NCBI GenBank assembly: GCA_029257775.1
Contig: JARIAQ010000024.1
Location: forward strand, 1 to 48,707
Origin: Blautia sp.
GTDB lineage: Bacteria; Bacillota; Clostridia; Lachnospirales; Lachnospiraceae
Direction: 5' to 3'
DNA length: 48,707 bases
The position numbers and the translations under genes were made by a program. The notes under the pieces are model-generated. The model saw nothing but the letters and a program-made list of their open reading frames with translations, made no database searches and was not told the DNA's origin. This document shows positions 1-37,414 of this stretch, piece by piece; within the stretch, counting starts at the first letter, position 1; every line of letters starts with the position of its first letter.

Positions 1-524
1 TCAATAATTATCCAGTTTTCAGAAGGCATACGATCTTCAAAATGAGGAGCAAGTAGTGTAAGAACATTGGACTTTGGTTGAATAATGGAAAGAAGTACGT
101 TTTCATTACATCTTGAAAATCGTACAAATTTACGAAATTGATGGGATTCATTGAGTACTTTTCTTTTTAATTCAAATAAAGCGGATACAGAGGGATTTCC
201 CAGCATTTGTGAGGCTTGTTTCTGAAAGAGAAATCCTATGATTAAAAAGCGGTAAATAATATCCAATTTGTTGCTTTCACAAGAAAGAGAAGCCATATAA
301 ATGTCGTAATAAGCTTGTGAGGATATTTTATTTTGAATAGATTGAATGACTTTTTTTGTTTTTTCTTTATCAGCATTAATGTGTCGGTATTCACAGAATA
401 ATTCTAAATTGCCAAGAGGCTCTGTTTGAAGTCGGATGTTAGAATGACCAAGACGGGAAGCCCAGGCATCGTAGATACAGGTCATCATATCATCAAAGTT
501 ATCATAACATGTAAAAATAATCAT
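1..524 (-). CDS. DUF4130 / TIGR03915-type putative DNA metabolism protein (3' end outside window)
   Basis: The protein starts MIIFTCYDNFDDMMTCIYDA and is open for 174 codons to the window edge, so its C-terminus is missing. The N-terminus and the later FEDRMPSENWIIID stretch match my recollection of the TIGR03915/DUF4130 family, whose members are encoded next to a radical SAM protein and in other genomes are fused to a uracil-DNA-glycosylase-like domain. The biochemical function is not established. An AGAAAGG ribosome site precedes the ATG, and the gene begins 22 bases after the stop of the radical SAM gene, so the two are almost certainly co-transcribed from the SOS-boxed promoter at 2068-2096. 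No catalytic motif can be named with confidence in the visible part. Confidence 0.8.
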   Translation of the reverse strand, partial: MIIFTCYDNFDDMMTCIYDAWASRLGHSNIRLQTEPLGNLELFCEYRHINADKEKTKKVIQSIQNKISSQAYYDIYMASLSCESNKLDIIYRFLIIGFLFQKQASQMLGNPSVSALFELKRKVLNESHQFRKFVRFSRCNENVLLSIIQPKSNVLTLLAPHFEDRMPSENWIII

Positions 525-546: not shown

Positions 547-2025
547 TTAAAGCTGTCCTAAAACACTTTTATGGGTGTCTTCAATGGTAGGCGGAAGATC
601 CAAGAAGTGATCATCAAACAGAGAAAGTTGATGATATGTTTGTGGATGTTCCAGTTTCCAAGAAGTTTCTTTTTGGTCTGCAGTAAGTTGACGAGTAATA
701 AAATTTTCCTCGATGGGCATGGAATAGAGCATTTTTCCATGACAGGTGAGAAAATATTGAGCTCGTTTTAAAACAACTCCAAGACGTTTTAAAATAGAAA
801 AATCAAGAGTTGTATTCTTTCTTGTCTGAACAATGCGGAGAGCAGACTTATTGCCAATTCCTGGAACTTTTAATAACTGGGCATAGCTTGCCGTGGTAAT
901 TTCTACAGGAAATAGCTCCAGATGTCTTAGCGCCCATTCACATTTTGGATCAAGGAGAATGTTAAAATTAGGTTTTTCAGGGCTTAAGAGGTCTTCAGCA
1001 TGAAAGCCATAGTAGCGTAGTAGCCAGTCTGCTTGATACAGACGATGTTCCCGTAAGAGCGGTGGTGTAGTATCAAGAGAAGGTAGAAGACTATCTTCAT
1101 TTAATGGAATGTATGCGGAAAAGAATACACGTTTTAAGTCAAATTTCTGATATAGCGTTTGAGTAACTTTTAAAAGTTCATAATCATTTTCAGGAGTAGC
1201 ACCAACAATCATTTGTGTGCTTTGACCTGCAGGGACAAAGGAAGGTATAGTAGAAGAATCGATAGGTAGTTGAGAAGTAGTTTGCACTTTCAAGGGGTAC
1301 GTAGGAGTTTCTATCTGTTGGTGTTTGGTGTTTGTAAAAATAGAATTAGGCAAATAGCGGTTTCCGTGATGACGTTCAAAGGAAAAAGATTTACCGAGTG
1401 CCAGCCGGGAATTTACAATGTTCTGTTGTATTTGTGACATAGGTTTTAAAATTTTATCATGAGTTTTGTTTGGAGCAAGTGCTTGAAGACTTTCTTTTGT
1501 AGGTAGTTCGATGTTTACACTCATTCTGTCTGCAAGATATCCTGTTTTTTGAATAAGATCAGGATGGGCACCAGGAACAGCTTTTGCATGGATATAGCCA
1601 CGAAAATGATATTTATTTCGGAGAAGATACAACGTTTGGTAGATAAGTTCCATAGTAAAATCTGGACTATTTACAATCCCTGAACTTAGAAATAATCCCT
1701 CGATATAATTACGTTTATAGAATTCCATAGTAATGCTACAAAGTTCTTCAGGAGTAAATGTGGTACGGACTTTATCGTTAGAACGGCGATTTAAACAGTA
1801 TTTGCAGTCGTAGATACATTCATTGGAAAAGAGAACTTTTAATAGGGAAATACATCTACCATCTGCAGAAAAGCTATGGCAGATGCCGGTGGCACAGGAA
1901 TTCCCTAAATGTCCTTTTGTGCCTTTGCGGTCTATACCGCTGGAAGTACAGGCAACATCATATTTTGCAGCATCAGATAAAATTTCTAGTTTTTGATTTA
2001 TATTTAATGAGGTTTGAATATTCAT
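547..2025 (-). CDS. Putative DNA modification/repair radical SAM protein (TIGR03916-like)
   Basis: A 492-residue protein beginning MNIQTSLNIN. This ATG is chosen because AAAGGAG sits just upstream; the frame stays open further 5', but that extension crosses the promoter. The radical SAM cluster motif CIYDCKYC (Cys70, Cys74, Cys77) is of the CxxxCxxC type. Four more cysteines (27, 44, 49, 58) precede it. A helix-hairpin-helix DNA-binding element (VPGIGNKSA, about residues 387-395) lies near the C-terminus, and the tail carries QLSLF at 466-470, the consensus of bacterial beta-clamp-binding peptides. The family pairs with DUF4130 proteins and is predicted to act on DNA; its substrate is unknown. 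Promoter and LexA-type boxes upstream suggest DNA-damage induction. The assignment to the family is firm, the reaction is not. Confidence 0.87.
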   Translation of the reverse strand: MNIQTSLNINQKLEILSDAAKYDVACTSSGIDRKGTKGHLGNSCATGICHSFSADGRCISLLKVLFSNECIYDCKYCLNRRSNDKVRTTFTPEELCSITMEFYKRNYIEGLFLSSGIVNSPDFTMELIYQTLYLLRNKYHFRGYIHAKAVPGAHPDLIQKTGYLADRMSVNIELPTKESLQALAPNKTHDKILKPMSQIQQNIVNSRLALGKSFSFERHHGNRYLPNSIFTNTKHQQIETPTYPLKVQTTSQLPIDSSTIPSFVPAGQSTQMIVGATPENDYELLKVTQTLYQKFDLKRVFFSAYIPLNEDSLLPSLDTTPPLLREHRLYQADWLLRYYGFHAEDLLSPEKPNFNILLDPKCEWALRHLELFPVEITTASYAQLLKVPGIGNKSALRIVQTRKNTTLDFSILKRLGVVLKRAQYFLTCHGKMLYSMPIEENFITRQLTADQKETSWKLEHPQTYHQLSLFDDHFLDLPPTIEDTHKSVLGQL

Positions 2026-2048
2026 AAGGGACTCCTTTAAATAAAAAC

Positions 2049-2060
2049 GAATATATGTTC
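2049..2060 (-). promoter_or_regulatory. Candidate LexA (SOS) box, distal copy
   Basis: On the minus strand this reads GAACATATATTC, one mismatch from the Firmicute LexA consensus GAACNNNNGTTC. It lies just downstream of the -10 element, around the expected transcription start, a position where a bound repressor would block initiation. Confidence 0.65.
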
Positions 2061-2067
2061 TGGTTCT

Positions 2068-2096
2068 ATTATAAAAGAGAGGAATATAAAAGTCAA
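2068..2096 (-). promoter_or_regulatory. Sigma-A promoter of the radical SAM/DUF4130 cassette
   Basis: On the minus strand: TTGACT (2096-2091), a 17-base spacer, then TATAAT (2073-2068). This is near-consensus and is flanked on both sides by LexA-type boxes, which fits a strong promoter kept silent by a repressor. Confidence 0.85.
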
Positions 2097-2108
2097 GAAC
2101 AAACGTTC
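2097..2108 (-). promoter_or_regulatory. Candidate LexA (SOS) box, perfect match
   Basis: The sequence is GAACGTTTGTTC on the minus strand (GAACAAACGTTC on plus), an exact match to GAACNNNNGTTC. It abuts the -35 hexamer of the promoter at 2068-2096. Confidence 0.8.
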
Positions 2109-2177: not shown

Positions 2178-3647
2178 ATGGATACATATAATATTTATAA
2201 GGATATACAGGCACGTACAGGTGGTGAAATTTATATTGGTGTAGTAGGACCTGTACGTACAGGGAAGTCAACCTTTGTCAGAAGATTTATGGAAATTGCA
2301 GCTTTACCCAATATGGAGGAGCCTCTTAGAAAGGAAGTCAGAGATCAGCTTCCTTTAAGTGGTTCTGGAAAGATGATTACAACTGCAGAACCCAAATTTA
2401 TACCTAAAGAAGCAGCAAAAATCCAAATAGGAGAAGATTTATCAGCAAAAATACGTTTAATTGATTGTGTAGGATTTATGGTGCCAGAGGCCTCAGGTAA
2501 TATGGAAAATGGTAAAGAACGTATGGTAAAAACCCCTTGGTTTGGGTATGAAATTCCTTTTCATCAAGCGGCAGAAACAGGCACACAAAAAGTGATTACA
2601 GAACATTCAAATATTGGTCTTGTTTTAACCTGTGACGGGTCTTTCGGTGATATTCCCCGCGAAAATTATATTCCCAGTGAAGAAAAAACAATAGCAGAAT
2701 TAAAAAAAACAGGGAAACCATTTTTGGTGTTAGTAAACTCTCAAAAACCTTATAAAGAGGATACTTTAAAATTAGTAGAGGAATTAAAGCAGAAATATCA
2801 GACAGGTGTTTTGAGTTTAAATTGTGAACAGCTTCGAAAGGAAGATATTTCTCGGATAATGGAAAAAATTTTATATGAATTTCCTATTGTACAGATGGAA
2901 TTTTATGTCCCCAAATGGGTAGAAATGCTTCCAGCAGAACATTATTTAAAGAAAGATTTAATAGAAAGTATTAAAAACCTCATGGGAAAAATGCGTTATG
3001 TTAAAGATGCAACGAAAGAAAATATGTATGTTTCTTCTGAATATATAGAAAATCTTCTTTTAGAAAAAACGGATTTATCTACAGGTAAATTAAAGATAAG
3101 AGTGGATATGGATGAAACAAGATATTATGAAATTTTAAGTGAAATGACAGGAGTGGAGATTTCCGACGAGTATGCACTTATTCATACAATGCAGGAGTTG
3201 GCCAAAATGAAGGCAGAATATGTAAAAGTGCAGGATGCAATTTCTTCTGTAAAGGGAAAAGGATATGGTGTAGTTACTCCTCAGAAAGATGAAATAAAAT
3301 TGGAAGAACCGGTAGTAATCAAGCAAGGAAATAAATATGGAGTAAAAATAAAATCTATCAGTCCTTCTATTCATATGATAAGGGCAAATATTGAGACGGA
3401 GATTGCACCTATTGTAGGAAGCGAGGAACAAGCAAAAGATTTGATTTCTTACATTAGAACAAGTGAGGAACGAAAAGAGAGTATCTGGCAGACAAATATT
3501 TTCGGAAAATCCATTGGAGAACTGGTAGAAGATGGAATTCATACAAAATTAGTTCAAATCGGTGATGAAAGTCAGATCAAGCTTCAGGATACCATGCAGA
3601 AAATTGTAAATGACAGCAAGGGTGGAATGGTGTGCATTATTATATAG
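2178..3647 (+). CDS. spoIVA: Stage IV sporulation protein A, coat-basement ATPase
   Basis: 489 residues, the usual length for SpoIVA. The N-terminal ATPase domain has the Walker A-type GPVRTGKSTF at about residues 24-33 and the characteristic SGSGKMITTAEPKFIP region; the protein ends GGMVCIII. SpoIVA coats the outer forespore membrane in the mother cell, polymerises on ATP hydrolysis and forms the platform for the spore coat. The start is fixed by GAAGGGGG seven bases upstream. The gene is monocistronic here, with a candidate sigma-E promoter in front and a terminator behind. It shows that the organism has a sporulation programme. Confidence 0.97.
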   Translation: MDTYNIYKDIQARTGGEIYIGVVGPVRTGKSTFVRRFMEIAALPNMEEPLRKEVRDQLPLSGSGKMITTAEPKFIPKEAAKIQIGEDLSAKIRLIDCVGFMVPEASGNMENGKERMVKTPWFGYEIPFHQAAETGTQKVITEHSNIGLVLTCDGSFGDIPRENYIPSEEKTIAELKKTGKPFLVLVNSQKPYKEDTLKLVEELKQKYQTGVLSLNCEQLRKEDISRIMEKILYEFPIVQMEFYVPKWVEMLPAEHYLKKDLIESIKNLMGKMRYVKDATKENMYVSSEYIENLLLEKTDLSTGKLKIRVDMDETRYYEILSEMTGVEISDEYALIHTMQELAKMKAEYVKVQDAISSVKGKGYGVVTPQKDEIKLEEPVVIKQGNKYGVKIKSISPSIHMIRANIETEIAPIVGSEEQAKDLISYIRTSEERKESIWQTNIFGKSIGELVEDGIHTKLVQIGDESQIKLQDTMQKIVNDSKGGMVCIII

Positions 3648-4439: not shown

Positions 4440-4570
4440 ATTACGGAAAAGAAACAGAGCTAAGCATTTTTATGGAATCAGGTGAAATTCCTGGGCAAGT
4501 CCGTTACTGTAAAGCCAGATACATAGATTGCTTAGAGAAAGGAAGGACATCTGCGGCAACCGGATGACTT
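4440..4570 (+). promoter_or_regulatory. Cobalamin riboswitch, compact form
   Basis: The core CAGGTGAAATTCCTG, then GTCCGTTACTGTAAAGCCAG, holds the conserved ACTGT and B12-box-like (AAGCCAGATAC) elements. The core is closed by CTAAGCA (4460-4466) pairing with TGCTTAG (4529-4535), and inside it TATG pairs with CATA. Unlike the riboswitch at 26671-26826, the B12 box follows ACTGT directly, with no extra helices between, as in class-II/AdoCbl-variant aptamers. A following hairpin (4548-4566) could supply the kissing loop. A terminator follows, so cobalamin probably switches the cbi operon off by premature termination. Confidence 0.9.
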
Positions 4571-4662: not shown

Positions 4663-5826
4663 ATGGAAAAAAAAACAGGATTAGAAGGTTATTATAGTAT
4701 TGTCAATAACAAAAAAATGCGTTTTGGGTATACTACTGGTTCCTGCGCAGCAGGAGCAGCAAAGGCAGCGACTCAAATGCTTTTAGAGGGAAAAAAACTC
4801 AAATATGTAGATCTTATGACGCCAAAGGGAATTTTATTACATCTTGAAATTTTGCACATTACCAGAGGAGAAAATTGGGTATCATGTGCCATTAAAAAGG
4901 ATGCAGGAGATGATCCTGATGCTACCAATGGCATTGAAATTTTTACAAAAGTAGAAAAAATACAGGAAAGAGGTATTTTTATTCAAGGTGGTATTGGCGT
5001 GGGACGAGTGACAAAAAAAGGACTGGAACAGCCTGTAGGAAAGGCCGCCATTAATAAAGTCCCTCAAGAAATGATACAAAGAGAACTAGAAGATATCTGT
5101 AATGAAGCAGATTATGAAGGGGGACTTTTGGTAGTTGTCAGTGTACCAAAAGGAAAAGAAATTGCAGTGAGAACTTTTAACCCTAGGCTTGGAATTGAAG
5201 GTGGAATTTCTATTTTGGGAACGTCAGGGATTGTGGAACCTATGAGCGAGGCAGCACTCATTAAAAGTATTGAGGTAGAAATGCGCCAGAAGGTAGAAAA
5301 TGGAGCAAAGTATTTGTTGGTGACTCCAGGAAATTACGGTGCAACTTATATGAAAAATCATCTTTCTTTGCCTTTTCAGGAAAATATGAAATGCAGTAAT
5401 TATGTAGGAGAAACTTTAGATATGGCTATGTCTATGGGCGTAGAAGGAATCTTGTTTATTTCTCATATTGGAAAATTTGTAAAAGTTGCAGCAGGAATTA
5501 TGAACACCCATTCCAGATGTGCAGATGCCAGGGCAGAGATTTTAAGTGCAAATGCGCTTCGTGCAGGTATTTCTTTAGAAAGTGCTAAAGAAATTTTAAA
5601 TACAGTTACCACAGATGAAGCTTTGGAAATTATTCAAAGAGAAGGAATCTTAGATTCTGTTATGAAGGAACTGACAGATAGAATTTTATTCTATTTAAAT
5701 CACAGAACTTATAATAGAATGCTTCTAGGTGCTGTACTGTTTTCGAATGAATTTGGCTATCTTGGAGAGACAGAGCATGTAAAGGAATTGACAGATTTGT
5801 TGAATCTTCAATATCAGAAAGGATGA
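4663..5826 (+). CDS. cbiD: Cobalt-precorrin-5B C1-methyltransferase CbiD
   Basis: 387 residues with the signature FGYTTGSCAAGAAKAA near the N-terminus and GTSGIVEPMSEAA in the middle. CbiD methylates C1 of the corrin ring in the anaerobic (cobalt-early) cobalamin pathway in the cytoplasm. This is the first gene after the cobalamin riboswitch and its terminator. It starts after AAAGGATTAAAA, and its stop overlaps the cbiL reading frame. Its presence, with cbiG and cbiK, shows that the pathway is the oxygen-independent one. Confidence 0.97.
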   Translation: MEKKTGLEGYYSIVNNKKMRFGYTTGSCAAGAAKAATQMLLEGKKLKYVDLMTPKGILLHLEILHITRGENWVSCAIKKDAGDDPDATNGIEIFTKVEKIQERGIFIQGGIGVGRVTKKGLEQPVGKAAINKVPQEMIQRELEDICNEADYEGGLLVVVSVPKGKEIAVRTFNPRLGIEGGISILGTSGIVEPMSEAALIKSIEVEMRQKVENGAKYLLVTPGNYGATYMKNHLSLPFQENMKCSNYVGETLDMAMSMGVEGILFISHIGKFVKVAAGIMNTHSRCADARAEILSANALRAGISLESAKEILNTVTTDEALEIIQREGILDSVMKELTDRILFYLNHRTYNRMLLGAVLFSNEFGYLGETEHVKELTDLLNLQYQKG

Positions 5827-23004: not shown

Positions 23005-24666
23005 TTAATAATCAATAGCTTTTAAATGATCAATAAAAAGTTTTCGGATGCCGGAATATTCACCTAATCCTTTTAATACAGGTTCAACTTCAAAACCTTC
23101 GGCTTTAAATTGACTATACCAGGAAGAAGAATCATTACTTGCCATATCATTTTTTGCATGATCGCCGGCTACAATCATGAAAGGAGCTAGGATTACTTTT
23201 TTAGGACGATAAGAGTGAACCATTTTTAATAAACTTTCCATACTGGGGTATGCCTCTACAGTTCCCAGGAAAATATTTTGGTATCCTTTATCTTTAAATG
23301 TGTAGTCTAAGGCAGCATAAATAGAATTAGCATAGTGTGTGGTTCCATGCCCCATAAGAACTAAAACTTCATCACTTTTTAAATTCTGAAATTCAGATGT
23401 AATAGAATTAATAACAGCTAAATTATCTTTTTCTGTAGTAAGAAGGGGATCTCCAAAAGAAATAGAATGAAAATTTTCTTGGAAAGCAAGAGCATCTTCC
23501 TTCATAAGATCATTTTCAATACCATTAATAACATGAGTAGGCTGAATTAATACATCTGTAATACCGTCTTGAAGCATTTGCTCCATAGCTTCTTTTACAG
23601 TATAAATATGTACCCCGTCTCTTGTACGTACTTTTTTGATAATCATTTTACTGGTCCATGCTCGGTAAAGTGCATATTCAGGAAAAGCCTCCTGCATATC
23701 TTTTTCAATGGCATCAATAGTGATTTTTCTAGTATCATTGTGGCTGGTTCCAAAGCTGACAGCTAATATGGCTTTTTTTGTTTCTTTTGACAAAGTTTTT
23801 CTTCCTCCGTAGTGTGTATTTATTTTTACATCTGAGATGTATTTTTCTAGTGTATTTAAGTTTTTTGGAAGGGGTAGGGAGGATTTTAAAATTCCTTTTC
23901 TACACAAACTTTCAAAAAGCTCTAATACGGCAGGTGGTTCTAAATTGGTTTGCTTTAAAGCACTGCGATTGCCGAATACTTGAGCTGGAGTGCCATGTAT
24001 TAAAGATTTTCCTTCGTGAAACAGGATAATTTCATCTGCCCACTCGTAAGCGTAATTTACATCATGAGTTGCCATTAAAACAGTAATACCATTTTGGGTC
24101 ATTTGATCCACAATATGATTTACCATGGTGGTATGTTTGGGATCTAAAGCAGCAGCAGGTTCATCTAAAATAATAATTTCGGGCTTCATGACCAAGATGT
24201 CGGCAATGGATACTTGCTTTTTTTGCCCTCCGCTTAAAGCATGGGTAGGCTTATGACGAAAAGGTGTAATTTCTAAATAATCAATTACTTCTTCTACAGC
24301 TCCTTTAACTTCTTCTTCTGAATGACCCAGGTTTAAAGGTCCAAAGGAAATTTCTTGATAAACACTAGCTGAAAAGAGCTGATTATCTGGATCCTGAAAA
24401 ACGATTCCGATTTTACTTCGTAAATCTAAAAGCTCTTTTTTCTTATAAGTAAATTCTTTATTATGAAAAAAAAGTTTACCTTTCTGCGGTTTTAAAATAC
24501 CAGTACAACATAGAAAGAATGTAGACTTTCCACTGCCGTTAGCACCCATAAAAGCAATTTTTTGCCCTTTTTTGATTTCCAAAGAAAGCCCATTTAAAGA
24601 ATGACTTTGCTCGTCATCATAAGAAAAATATAAATCTTCTGCTTTTAAAATAATATCTGAATTCAT
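23005..24666 (-). CDS. cbiO-cbiK: CbiO-CbiK fusion: cobalt-transport ATPase joined to sirohydrochlorin cobaltochelatase
   Basis: A 553-residue protein. Residues about 1-275 are an energy-coupling-factor ATPase: Walker A MGANGSGKST, Q-loop VFQDPDNQLF, ABC signature LSGGQKKQ, Walker B IIILDEPAAALD, switch ATHD. After a linker, residues about 298-553 are CbiK: AILAVSFGTSHNDTRK, metal-ligand histidines in LMGHGTTHYANS and VAGDHAKNDM. CbiO powers cobalt import by CbiMNQ; CbiK inserts Co2+ into sirohydrochlorin. The reading frame is continuous. GGAGGAG nine bases upstream fixes the start at 24666; an ATG at 24684 sits inside that ribosome site. It overlaps cbiQ by four bases. No separate cobaltochelatase is seen in the window. 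Confidence 0.93.
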   Translation of the reverse strand: MNSDIILKAEDLYFSYDDEQSHSLNGLSLEIKKGQKIAFMGANGSGKSTFFLCCTGILKPQKGKLFFHNKEFTYKKKELLDLRSKIGIVFQDPDNQLFSASVYQEISFGPLNLGHSEEEVKGAVEEVIDYLEITPFRHKPTHALSGGQKKQVSIADILVMKPEIIILDEPAAALDPKHTTMVNHIVDQMTQNGITVLMATHDVNYAYEWADEIILFHEGKSLIHGTPAQVFGNRSALKQTNLEPPAVLELFESLCRKGILKSSLPLPKNLNTLEKYISDVKINTHYGGRKTLSKETKKAILAVSFGTSHNDTRKITIDAIEKDMQEAFPEYALYRAWTSKMIIKKVRTRDGVHIYTVKEAMEQMLQDGITDVLIQPTHVINGIENDLMKEDALAFQENFHSISFGDPLLTTEKDNLAVINSITSEFQNLKSDEVLVLMGHGTTHYANSIYAALDYTFKDKGYQNIFLGTVEAYPSMESLLKMVHSYRPKKVILAPFMIVAGDHAKNDMASNDSSSWYSQFKAEGFEVEPVLKGLGEYSGIRKLFIDHLKAIDY

Positions 24667-25439
24667 GAAAAAAATCTCCTCCATACGGCAAACAGAAATA
24701 GCGCTGAGTCAAAAAATATAATAGATATAATGACCTTTTTTTTAGGAGGTTGATTTTCTGATAATACATGGATAGTGTCATCATAACATCTTGCCTCCAT
24801 AGAAGCATACAAACGATTAGAACGTTCAATGGCTCTTATCATTAAGACAGATCCCAACATTCCAAAAGACTTTAAGGATGTTTTGTAGTTTCGATTTCCA
24901 AGACGACAGTTTTGGGCTGTGGATAGAGCAGAAGCAGTATCCAAAAGTACAAAAATAAAACGATAAATTAGAAGCATCAGTTCTATCAATAATTTAGGAC
25001 AGTGAAGTTTTTTTAAAACTTGCAGAATATCCGGTATAGGTGTGGTAAAAGATAAAAAATATAGGCAGGAAACAGCTCCCAAAGCTGTAAAAATAAGCTG
25101 TACAGCATAAAAGAAAGAAGAATAACTGGTAGTAATATACCAACTTCCCATAGGAATAGCAAATAAATTCATGGGTGTACGGCTTATATGAAACATTATG
25201 GCAATAGTACTAAGTAATAAAAAAATAATTGGAGCAGTGAGAAAATGTAAATAACGAGAAACAGGGACTCCACCCTTACATACGGTAAGAATCCCTGTAA
25301 CTGCTAATACGATACTTGCCACTGCAATAGAACGAGCCATTACACAAATACAAAGTGTAATTATTGCAAAGGCAAATTTCTCACTGGCGTTTTCATATCT
25401 AAGTCTAGAATGATAGCAAAGCTTATCAATGACAATCAT
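24663..25439 (-). CDS. cbiQ: Cobalt ECF transporter T component CbiQ
   Basis: 258 residues with four to six hydrophobic spans and the two short cytoplasmic helices typical of T components: the first arginine motif near AQNCRLGNRNY, the second in IERSNRLYASMEARCYD. CbiQ couples the ATPase CbiO to the substrate-binding CbiMN pair in the membrane. AAAGGAG lies six bases before the ATG. The 3' end overlaps the CbiO-CbiK start (ATGA). Confidence 0.94.
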   Translation of the reverse strand: MIVIDKLCYHSRLRYENASEKFAFAIITLCICVMARSIAVASIVLAVTGILTVCKGGVPVSRYLHFLTAPIIFLLLSTIAIMFHISRTPMNLFAIPMGSWYITTSYSSFFYAVQLIFTALGAVSCLYFLSFTTPIPDILQVLKKLHCPKLLIELMLLIYRFIFVLLDTASALSTAQNCRLGNRNYKTSLKSFGMLGSVLMIRAIERSNRLYASMEARCYDDTIHVLSENQPPKKKVIISIIFFDSALFLFAVWRRFFS

Positions 25440-26573: not shown

Positions 26574-26670
26574 CTATCAGAAGAACAAGAGGTTCTAGCG
26601 AAATTGATATGCTATGAGCCAACCTGTTCTTACACACGGATATCGTTCGTAACCTGTGTAAATCGCATGT

Positions 26671-26826
26671 ACAAGGCAGGTCTTCTGACTTAGGTATCGA
26701 CATTTTATTTCGTCTTCCCGGATCTCTCCAGTGACATAATGAAATAGAACTTCTCCTTTACAGCGGCGTGACCGTGTGAGACTTTCACTCAACTTTCCTA
26801 TTCTCCTGTAAGCAGGCACCTTGAAC
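26671..26826 (-). promoter_or_regulatory. Cobalamin riboswitch, classical form, upstream of cbiM
   Basis: The minus strand has GTGAAAGTCTCACACGGTCA, CGCCGCTGTAAAGGAGAAG, a peripheral helical region, and the B12 box AAGTCAGAAGACCTGCC (26691-26675). Terminal CAAGG pairs with CCTTG. The long insert between CGCTGT and the B12 box is typical of class-I aptamers. Cobalamin should reduce cobalt importer expression through the downstream terminator. Confidence 0.94.
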
Positions 26827-26842
26827 ATTCAATTCTATTTTT

Positions 26843-35606: not shown

Positions 35607-37301
35607 TTAAAAAAGACTTAAGTTAGAAAGAGCCTGATAAATATCCAAGGTACCATATCCCCATTCACGGTTGGGATATAGCCGTTCCTGTGTACGTTTT
35701 GCACCTCTAATTAGTAAAGTTTTTAGTTCTGTATTATTAAAAAATCTGGCAGGTGTACGTCTCATACCCCATTCTACAAGAAGAGCACTTCCTCCAGCAG
35801 TAATTGCAGCAGAAACTGAAGTCCCAGACATAGTTACAAATTGATTTTGGGGAGCAGGACCTAAAACATTAGCACCAGGAGCTGCAAGATCAGGTTTAAT
35901 CTGGTCACTTCTTGTATATCCTCTGCTGGAATTTAAAAAAAGGCTGTTATCATAAGCGTTATATGCAGCAGATGTAATAACGGAAGGGGAATCGGAAGGA
36001 GCTGTAAGAGTTATATTAGGATTTGGTTGTATAAATTTAACGTCTGGTTTTGCAAGACCAGTAATGGGGAGCCATAAATGAAAGGATCCCTGACCAGATA
36101 CATTTGTATAGACTCTTATTTTCCAGATACCAGGAGTAGGATTAGCAAAACGCATAAAGATTAGTTGGCTTCCAGAAACAGTTTGAAACATTTCTGAACT
36201 GACAAAAATTTTTGTATCTTCTAAAATGAAAGAAATGTTTTCGCTGAAGCTTATACGGGGAGAAATTTTAGGAACAGTTTCTCCTAAAGGAGATTCAAAA
36301 CCAATTGCATAAACTTCGGGAGGATCACTCCAAAACTCTACACAAAATCCTAAAGTATTTTCGGCGACCAGTATTTCTATGTCTGTGAAAAATTCACTGC
36401 CGGAAAAAACTCCATAGTAATGATGGGCTTTTCCAGTTTCATTTCCAGCAGCAACAACAGAGTGGAGACCTCGGTAATTATCAGCAATAGCGAGCATAGA
36501 ATCCACAGGAGAAACACCGGTATGGGAACCCTGATTAGTGCCCAAACCAAAGCAGAGAACAAGAGGTTTTTTTAGTCTTTCAGCTAGTAAAGTAAGATAA
36601 CGAATTCCCATCATAATATCTGAACTTTGATAGGCAGGCATATCTCCAGTAATCAGAAAAAGAGATTTTAAGTATTGTTTTGCTTCTTTTAATTTCACTA
36701 CAGCTATCATGCTTTCGGGAGCAGCACCGTTAAAATTAAATTGAGAGAGTGTGCTTCCTGCTGCAACACCAGCAAGAAAAGTGCCGTGTCCATTTGTGTC
36801 TTCACTAGGAACAATCGAAAGTGGATGATCAGTACTTAGTGCAGCATTTAAGTCATCGTTGTTATAAGCACTCCCGTATTCTAAATCGAAAGGAGGAGTT
36901 CCTTCTTGAATGGTTTGATCCCAGATTCCATAAATGCGGCTACTTCCATCGGAATTTTGAAAAGCAGGATGTGTATAATCAATACCAGTGTCAAGGAATC
37001 CCATAAGAACATCCCTTCCTTTTAAATTTAAAATGGGTTGTACCTGTACAGTAGTAATGCCAGAGGAATCTAGATTTACAGTATCAAGGAGCGTGTATAG
37101 TTTTGGTACGGTGTTATAAAAAAAACCATATTCATAATAGTCGGGGTAAAGTTGTTCATTTAATGGATAGTGAACCATTCCATAATAACGGTTAAAAAGT
37201 TGTGCACCCCATTCTTTGTACTCTTCTAAAAAATCAGAATATACGGGAAGAATAATATCGGCATATTCTTCTGAGAGGATCAATTCTTTTTTTGATGGCA
37301 T
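35607..37301 (-). CDS. Csp-like S8 family (subtilisin) peptidase
   Basis: 564 residues. Numbering from MPSKKELILS: an N-terminal region of about 85 residues that could be a prodomain, catalytic Asp104 (FLDTGIDYTHPAF), His172 (TNGHGTFLAGVAAG), oxyanion Asn287 (AAGNETG) and Ser495 (MSGTSVSAAITAGG). Residues about 295-425 form an inserted beta-rich domain, as in clostridial Csp proteases of spore germination. All catalytic residues are intact, and there is no signal peptide. GGAG lies six bases before the ATG at 37301; the ATG at 37313 has no ribosome site. It is divergent from another subtilase and next to the Cys-rich gene. Confidence 0.88.
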   Translation of the reverse strand: MPSKKELILSEEYADIILPVYSDFLEEYKEWGAQLFNRYYGMVHYPLNEQLYPDYYEYGFFYNTVPKLYTLLDTVNLDSSGITTVQVQPILNLKGRDVLMGFLDTGIDYTHPAFQNSDGSSRIYGIWDQTIQEGTPPFDLEYGSAYNNDDLNAALSTDHPLSIVPSEDTNGHGTFLAGVAAGSTLSQFNFNGAAPESMIAVVKLKEAKQYLKSLFLITGDMPAYQSSDIMMGIRYLTLLAERLKKPLVLCFGLGTNQGSHTGVSPVDSMLAIADNYRGLHSVVAAGNETGKAHHYYGVFSGSEFFTDIEILVAENTLGFCVEFWSDPPEVYAIGFESPLGETVPKISPRISFSENISFILEDTKIFVSSEMFQTVSGSQLIFMRFANPTPGIWKIRVYTNVSGQGSFHLWLPITGLAKPDVKFIQPNPNITLTAPSDSPSVITSAAYNAYDNSLFLNSSRGYTRSDQIKPDLAAPGANVLGPAPQNQFVTMSGTSVSAAITAGGSALLVEWGMRRTPARFFNNTELKTLLIRGAKRTQERLYPNREWGYGTLDIYQALSNLSLF

Positions 37302-37414
37302 AGGTAACTCCATAAGGTTTTTCTTTTAATTTATGAATTTTGAAAAAAAACTTGACTGGAACTCTCATTCTTTTAAAGGAATATGATATAGAAAAGAGAA
37401 AATAGGTCTAGAAA

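Follow-up and report, generated by a model that had tools for sequence, protein, structure and literature searches.

The radical SAM/DUF4130 gene pair at the start of the window is predicted to be a LexA-repressed SOS operon, a reading to which we assign a probability of about 0.9, and judged from sequence it is very probably a DNA-damage-induced repair system. The window is the whole stretch of DNA that was analysed, 48,707 nucleotides in length, and corresponds to the entire contig C15 of the genome of a gut bacterium, 2.23 Mb in size and 99.9% complete. By its radical SAM (rSAM) protein, the nearest named relatives are Blautia, with 87% identity to Blautia sp. Marseille-P3201T among the matches listed. 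The genome contains the boxes and the promoter of the pair, the genes for LexA and RecA, and a like box at lexA, recA and uvrA; the boxes of the pair are conserved.

The gene pair and its promoter

The operon, its control elements and its divergent neighbour occupy the following positions in the window:

547..2025, minus strand: radical SAM protein, TIGR03916 (rSAM_link_UDG), 492 residues; 663.9 bits against a cut-off of 343.5
1..524, minus strand: TIGR03915/DUF4130 protein, first 174 residues; 183 bits against a cut-off of 112.25; the gene runs off the contig
2097..2108, minus strand: LexA box 1, exact GAACGTTTGTTC, directly upstream of the -35; matrix score 15.9, the highest in the window
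2091..2096, minus strand: -35 hexamer TTGACT, matching 11 of 12 positions jointly with the -10, spacer 17
2068..2073, minus strand: -10 hexamer TATAAT, 17-nt spacer from the -35
2049..2060, minus strand: LexA box 2, GAACATATATTC with one mismatch, where transcription is expected to start; matrix score 15.2, second in the window
2031..2037, minus strand: ribosome-binding site AAGGAGT, read from the sequence
2025-2023, minus strand: rSAM start codon ATG, 3' of AAGGAGT
2178..3647, plus strand: spoIVA, divergent neighbour, TIGR02836, 599.6 bits; unlikely to be the gene that the boxes control

A sequence-only reading had described LexA-type boxes on both sides of a near-consensus promoter, an exact box 1 at TTGACT and a one-mismatch box 2 past TATAAT, and this description holds, with its coordinates (2049-2108) exact. 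The minus-strand order is GAACGTTTGTTC, TTGACT, 17 nt, TATAAT, GAACATATATTC, AAGGAGT and ATG. Box 1 abuts the -35 hexamer and does not overlap it, and box 2 occupies the expected start site; operators so placed are able to block the promoter. Two boxes that bracket a strong promoter are the classical layout of a tightly repressed SOS gene.

The two boxes stand out in the window by matrix score, the third-best site reaching 13.0. The bare motif is not enriched, either in the window (14 sites with at most one mismatch, 12.5 expected) or genome-wide (18 exact sites, 22 for a control pattern), and counting it is uninformative because both counts equal chance. What is unusual is the position and pairing of the sites: of 1846 control windows, each of 250 bp and drawn from the same loci with coding DNA included, at least one site is present in 134 and at least two in 5. 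In an alignment of 18 Blautia promoters that includes that of the window, and in which one row (L231) aligns badly, the boxes and hexamers are conserved at 0.89-0.92, compared with 0.48-0.59 for the spacer and flanks.

The rSAM protein combines a full-length TIGR03916 match with a CX3CX2C motif formed by C70, C74 and C77, which is preceded by three further invariant cysteines. Residues C26, C49, H50, C58, C70, C74 and C77, and also H146, are invariant in 49 sequences, 9 of which come from Proteobacteria and Bacteroidota. A helix-hairpin-helix-like stretch matches HHH_3 at 24.5 bits, below the Pfam cut-off of 27, and a PDB profile search with the rSAM protein returned a helix-hairpin-helix and a short radical SAM match only; the same search returned no match for the DUF4130 protein. 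The end of the TIGR03915/DUF4130 family is matched at the terminus of contig C6. This contig and the first part of the window have exactly 127 bp in common, so the gap in the DUF4130 gene looks like an assembly break. A search of the whole genome for a UdgX-type uracil-DNA glycosylase (UDG) gave no TIGR03914 match at E <= 0.001.

Other features of the window concern cobalamin, cobalt and germination. A clear cobalamin riboswitch (RF00174, 108 bits; 26658-26838, minus strand) precedes cbiM and other genes for cobalt transport. A match to the AdoCbl-II riboswitch family (32.3 bits, below the gathering score of 36.5; 4457-4533, plus strand) lies before a gene starting at 4663. The first half of the single frame at 23005-24684 (minus strand) matches a CbiO-type cobalt ABC ATPase and the second half, below the cut-off, the sirohydrochlorin cobaltochelatase CbiK; the frame is thus an apparent CbiO-CbiK fusion. 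The frame at 35607-37313 (minus strand) encodes a serine-protease-like protein that resembles the germination proteins CspC/CspBA, well below the cut-offs.

LexA sites of the same genome

The genome encodes LexA, with a single PF01726 match in a profile search (84.4 bits, contig C17). The interval between lexA and a divergent LysM gene contains four boxes with at most one mismatch and a fifth with two mismatches. Two of the boxes at lexA end in ATTC in place of GTTC, as does box 2 of the operon. The recA gene carries an exact CGAACTTATGTTCG, and CGAACNNNNGTTYG occurs without mismatch at two places in the genome only, lexA and recA. At uvrA, the LexA-like AGAACAAATGTTTG lies about 80 bp before the first ATG (L342:2107-2120; contig C26:19106-19119), and the 1 kb upstream of uvrB contains no site with at most one mismatch. 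Thus the earlier expectation that the organism's own LexA box is of the GAACNNNNGTTC kind is borne out at lexA and recA, and also at uvrA; uvrB, likewise named beforehand, has no such site.

Of the 31 lexA promoters scanned, 22 supplied the 49 sites behind the 20-position matrix, four of these sites coming from the window's own genome; the matrix threshold is the level exceeded by 1% of 1230 control windows. The sites were chosen by the motif itself (at most one mismatch) in lexA promoters, so the matrix is independent of the rSAM promoters and dependent on the motif. In the other 9 of the 31 lexA promoters a GAACNNNNGTTC-type site is missing within 300 bp; the motif is therefore not universal in the phylum.

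Most exact sites of the genome fall in long frames. Of sites L002-L016, 14 of 15 lie inside some mechanical frame of at least 100 aa, including the operon's own, L006, which is counted as inside a frame because of an upstream TTG start; the list of mechanical frames is therefore coarse. Sites L003, L006 and L012 are in addition no more than 250 bp upstream of another frame, two exact sites on contig C55 are inside frames, and the last of the 18 exact sites is that of recA. Site L007 is found upstream of a PAP2-family phosphatase gene only: this exact box (L007:1501-1512; contig C16:33566-33577; score 17.5) precedes the gene by about 100 bp, making the phosphatase a possible extra SOS member.

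Conservation of the boxes

The rSAM family TIGR03916 is found above its cut-off in 62 of 98 relatives and in 94 of 398 phylum genomes, the window's genome being counted in both, and a further set comprises the best 80 of 435 named loci. Four rows were dropped before counting: L133 and L218 lacked a recognisable start, L184 has 72 bp of upstream sequence, and L151 is the window's own copy. No more than 250 bp away from the start, 51 of 61 relatives have a box with at most one mismatch, as do 77 of 79 named loci and 61 of 91 loci of the phylum set. Exact boxes are present over the same distance in 29, 41 and 20 of these loci, respectively, and at least two boxes in 37, 60 and 11. It is chiefly the closer relatives that have paired boxes; the single box is more widespread.

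Pooling the three sets with the window and removing identical upstream regions leaves 224 distinct promoters, with species overlap between the sets. Exact boxes are found in 86 of these, boxes with at most one mismatch in 183 and at least two boxes in 103; 197 are above the matrix threshold and 27 fail it. Promoters pass the matrix in 115 of 119 cases where the rSAM protein is at least 53% identical to that of the window, in 70 of 91 at 45-53% and in 12 of 14 below 45%. Among 104 non-redundant promoters from the relatives and named sets, 101 contain a box, compared with 134 of 1846 control windows (7%), and 81 contain at least two, compared with 5 of 1846. Shuffling the promoters gave a box in 123 of 2080 cases, and when 256 four-gap palindromes are compared over the 104 promoters, GAACNNNNGTTC takes the top rank. 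The view that homologues in related genomes keep the boxes is upheld by both the 101 of 104 promoters and the 197 of 224 that pass the matrix.

At the 142 loci with a promoter matching 9 of 12 positions, 150 of 223 sites overlap the interval from -35 to +14. The spacings between two boxes fall at 13-14, 25-31, 46-58 and 59-64, with 48 the commonest, and constant helical phasing is not seen among them; since the spacings are spread in this way, the two boxes look like independent operators.

In seven genomes belonging to a single genus (L205-L211), a weaker AGAATATATATTCG-like palindrome replaces the usual box of the rSAM promoters, and a GAACNNNNGTTC-type site is also missing from the 300 bp scanned at their lexA promoters. 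The absence of a GAACNNNNGTTC-type site from both promoters hints at a shifted LexA motif. Two gut scaffolds labelled Bacteriophage sp. (L317 and L318; records marked unverified) carry an rSAM gene behind two LexA-like boxes.

Boxes and the presence of LexA

The presence of the box was compared with that of LexA in 80 rSAM-bearing genomes, 73 with a LexA match and 7 without. By matrix, the box is present in 56 of the 73 LexA-bearing genomes and in none of the 7 LexA-less genomes (p = 1e-4); by mismatch count the numbers are 41 of 73 and 0 of 7 (p = 0.005). The promoters of 17 of the 73 LexA-bearing genomes fail the matrix. Because 39 of the 40 box-negatives were included by design, with only G016 outside the sample, these fractions are not population rates. 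Completeness is below 90% for three of the seven LexA-less genomes, in which LexA may be missed for that reason.

Operators and partners in other lineages

The plasmid collection contains 158 records with a match, and 22 of these were examined. Exact GAACN7GAAC or GTTCN7GTTC, which we take to be the LexA box of Alphaproteobacteria, lies within 200 bp in 13 of 13 alphaproteobacterial operons, as against 0 of 715 control windows, and 12 of the 13 boxes are within 50 bp of the start used. Both Caballeronia operons contain an exact CTGTN8ACAG of the E. coli type, presumably the LexA box of Beta- and Gammaproteobacteria. We offer this as a clear case in which the operator appears to have been replaced, and the regulatory link kept, when the repressor changed specificity.

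A convincing SOS motif was not found before the operon in four Bacteroidota records and one record each from Gemmatimonadota, Acinetobacter and Fusobacterium. The Parabacteroides operon has one exact GGA-N5-TCC at -211, a Bacteroidetes SOS motif according to part of one report (PMC8565304), and the other six motif-less records have at most one-mismatch matches.

The partner of the rSAM protein in Proteobacteria, annotated or scanned, is mostly a UdgX-family protein, and both proteins scanned, one alpha- and one betaproteobacterial, are DUF4130-UdgX fusions. In Acinetobacter the partner carries the annotation 'DNA metabolism protein'. The sequence GEQPG occurs in 8 of 9 of the UdgX-family partners, and a basic, R-loop-like motif with a terminal H in 7 of 9. 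According to passages of PMC10359453, UdgX traps uracil sites covalently, and GEQPG and the R-loop-like motif belong to this covalent uracil-DNA trap.

Alternative explanations for the boxes

The boxes sit in the 152-bp region common to the operon and spoIVA, and they could serve the divergent sporulation gene, or both genes, and so tie sporulation to DNA damage; a link between LexA and sporulation in C. difficile is indicated by the title of one paper (PMC4689574). We consider this quite unlikely. In the stretch examined, a spoIVA match is present at only 24 of 232 loci (23 with a box), whereas the box is kept at 167 of the 208 loci lacking such a match, a count on which spoIVA was rejected as the target. 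The positions of the boxes, moreover, track the rSAM promoter. Repressors other than LexA can bind similar palindromes, and one of these might occupy the boxes instead. This is very unlikely in view of the same kind of box before lexA, recA and uvrA in the window's genome, the loss of the box from all seven genomes lacking a LexA match, and its replacement by alpha- and E. coli-type LexA motifs in Proteobacteria.

That the boxes are functionless occurrences of a short motif would fit the chance-level counts in the window and genome. The probability of this is practically negligible, and it was rejected on the frequency of the box (present in 101 of 104 promoters and in 7% of control windows) together with the block-wise conservation of the Blautia promoters; the exact local LexA boxes of the alphaproteobacterial and Caballeronia operons also speak against it. 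Predicted regulation of the pair by LexA is strongly supported on sequence grounds.

Relation to known systems

The pair resembles the COG1573-COG4277 operon, as far as partial sources describe the latter, in comprising two genes, there for a UDG-family protein and a radical SAM protein; COG4277 we take to be the same radical SAM family as the rSAM of the window. The partner differs, being a UDG in that operon and DUF4130 in the window, whose genome has no UdgX match. SOS control has been predicted for the COG1573-COG4277 (UDG base excision repair) operon in Bacteroidetes, and reports for Verrucomicrobia and Alphaproteobacteria are also cited, in passages of PMC8565304. Closer to the present case, LexA control has been predicted for the operon CAC3343-CAC3344 of Clostridium acetobutylicum (PMC3828012, in part). 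This is the same kind of pair, with CAC3344 as the putative DUF4130 member, and in the portion of the paper concerned the case is a prediction for one species. LexA control of such pairs is thus already in print, for C. acetobutylicum and for UDG-linked versions. To this the Blautia operon adds two boxes bracketing the promoter, a controlled test in relatives and the phylum, a test against LexA absence and the motif switch in Proteobacteria; the contribution lies in how broadly the box was tested and in operators that switch from one LexA type to another.

Less specific mentions occur in excerpts of other papers. The table of LexA regulon members in Streptomyces venezuelae lists a radical SAM gene (PMC9380542), the Gram-positive core SOS regulon includes 'a radical SAM protein' (PMC7739468), and the LexA regulon of C. 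thermocellum contains two 'DNA repair proteins' (PMC8457756), in each case with the family not stated. The main text of the C. thermocellum paper does not contain 'radical SAM', and that of a C. difficile LexA paper (PMC4234289) does not contain 'radical'. An Acinetobacter protein annotated as a DNA metabolism protein rose on desiccation, according to part of PMC13130816, and the relevant portions of PMC9611098 and PMC1839093 contain little or nothing bearing on the pair. Among open-licence papers, a scope outside which most subscription papers fall, we found no report of lineage-wide conservation of the box and no paper giving the chemistry of the radical SAM/DUF4130 pair.

Spore photoproduct lyase (SplB) is a radical SAM enzyme of DNA repair and acts on DNA, as the rSAM of the window is predicted to do. 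It belongs to a separate COG (COG1533), and the rSAM family of the window differs from it in the helix-hairpin-helix-like stretch and the three extra invariant cysteines before CX3CX2C. No SPL family or chain is among the matches listed for the window's rSAM, including six PDB sequences at E up to 0.1; these profile and PDB matches reveal no sequence relation to spore photoproduct lyase.

A model for regulation and function

In the LexA-repressed SOS operon that we propose, LexA dimers would occupy both boxes in the undamaged cell, box 1 along the upstream side of the -35 and box 2 over the start site, and the bound LexA would keep RNA polymerase off the strong promoter. After DNA damage, RecA on single-stranded DNA would trigger LexA self-cleavage and leave the boxes empty. 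The radical SAM and DUF4130 proteins would then be made together and may repair or process damaged DNA. They would act as a DNA-directed pair, the rSAM protein through its helix-hairpin-helix-like stretch and alongside it DUF4130, which elsewhere is fused to UdgX.

We infer a repair function from the predicted regulation, the domains and the fusion partner. Induction by damage would reasonably point to a role in DNA repair, and this is strengthened by the switch of the operon to other LexA motifs in Proteobacteria. A broader proposal, which we advance tentatively and with the odds somewhat against it, is that the rSAM-DUF4130 pair may be an ancient, near-obligatory SOS effector whose operator has been re-invented at each change in LexA specificity. 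The pair might then carry out an undescribed DNA-lesion chemistry, using an rSAM with an added metal or redox site (C26, C49, H50 and C58) that is targeted to DNA by the helix-hairpin-helix and DUF4130 and sometimes coupled to UdgX.

A damage-induced operon in most of the relatives examined, and under different LexA boxes in Proteobacteria, would tell when these proteins should be made and which phenotype to seek.
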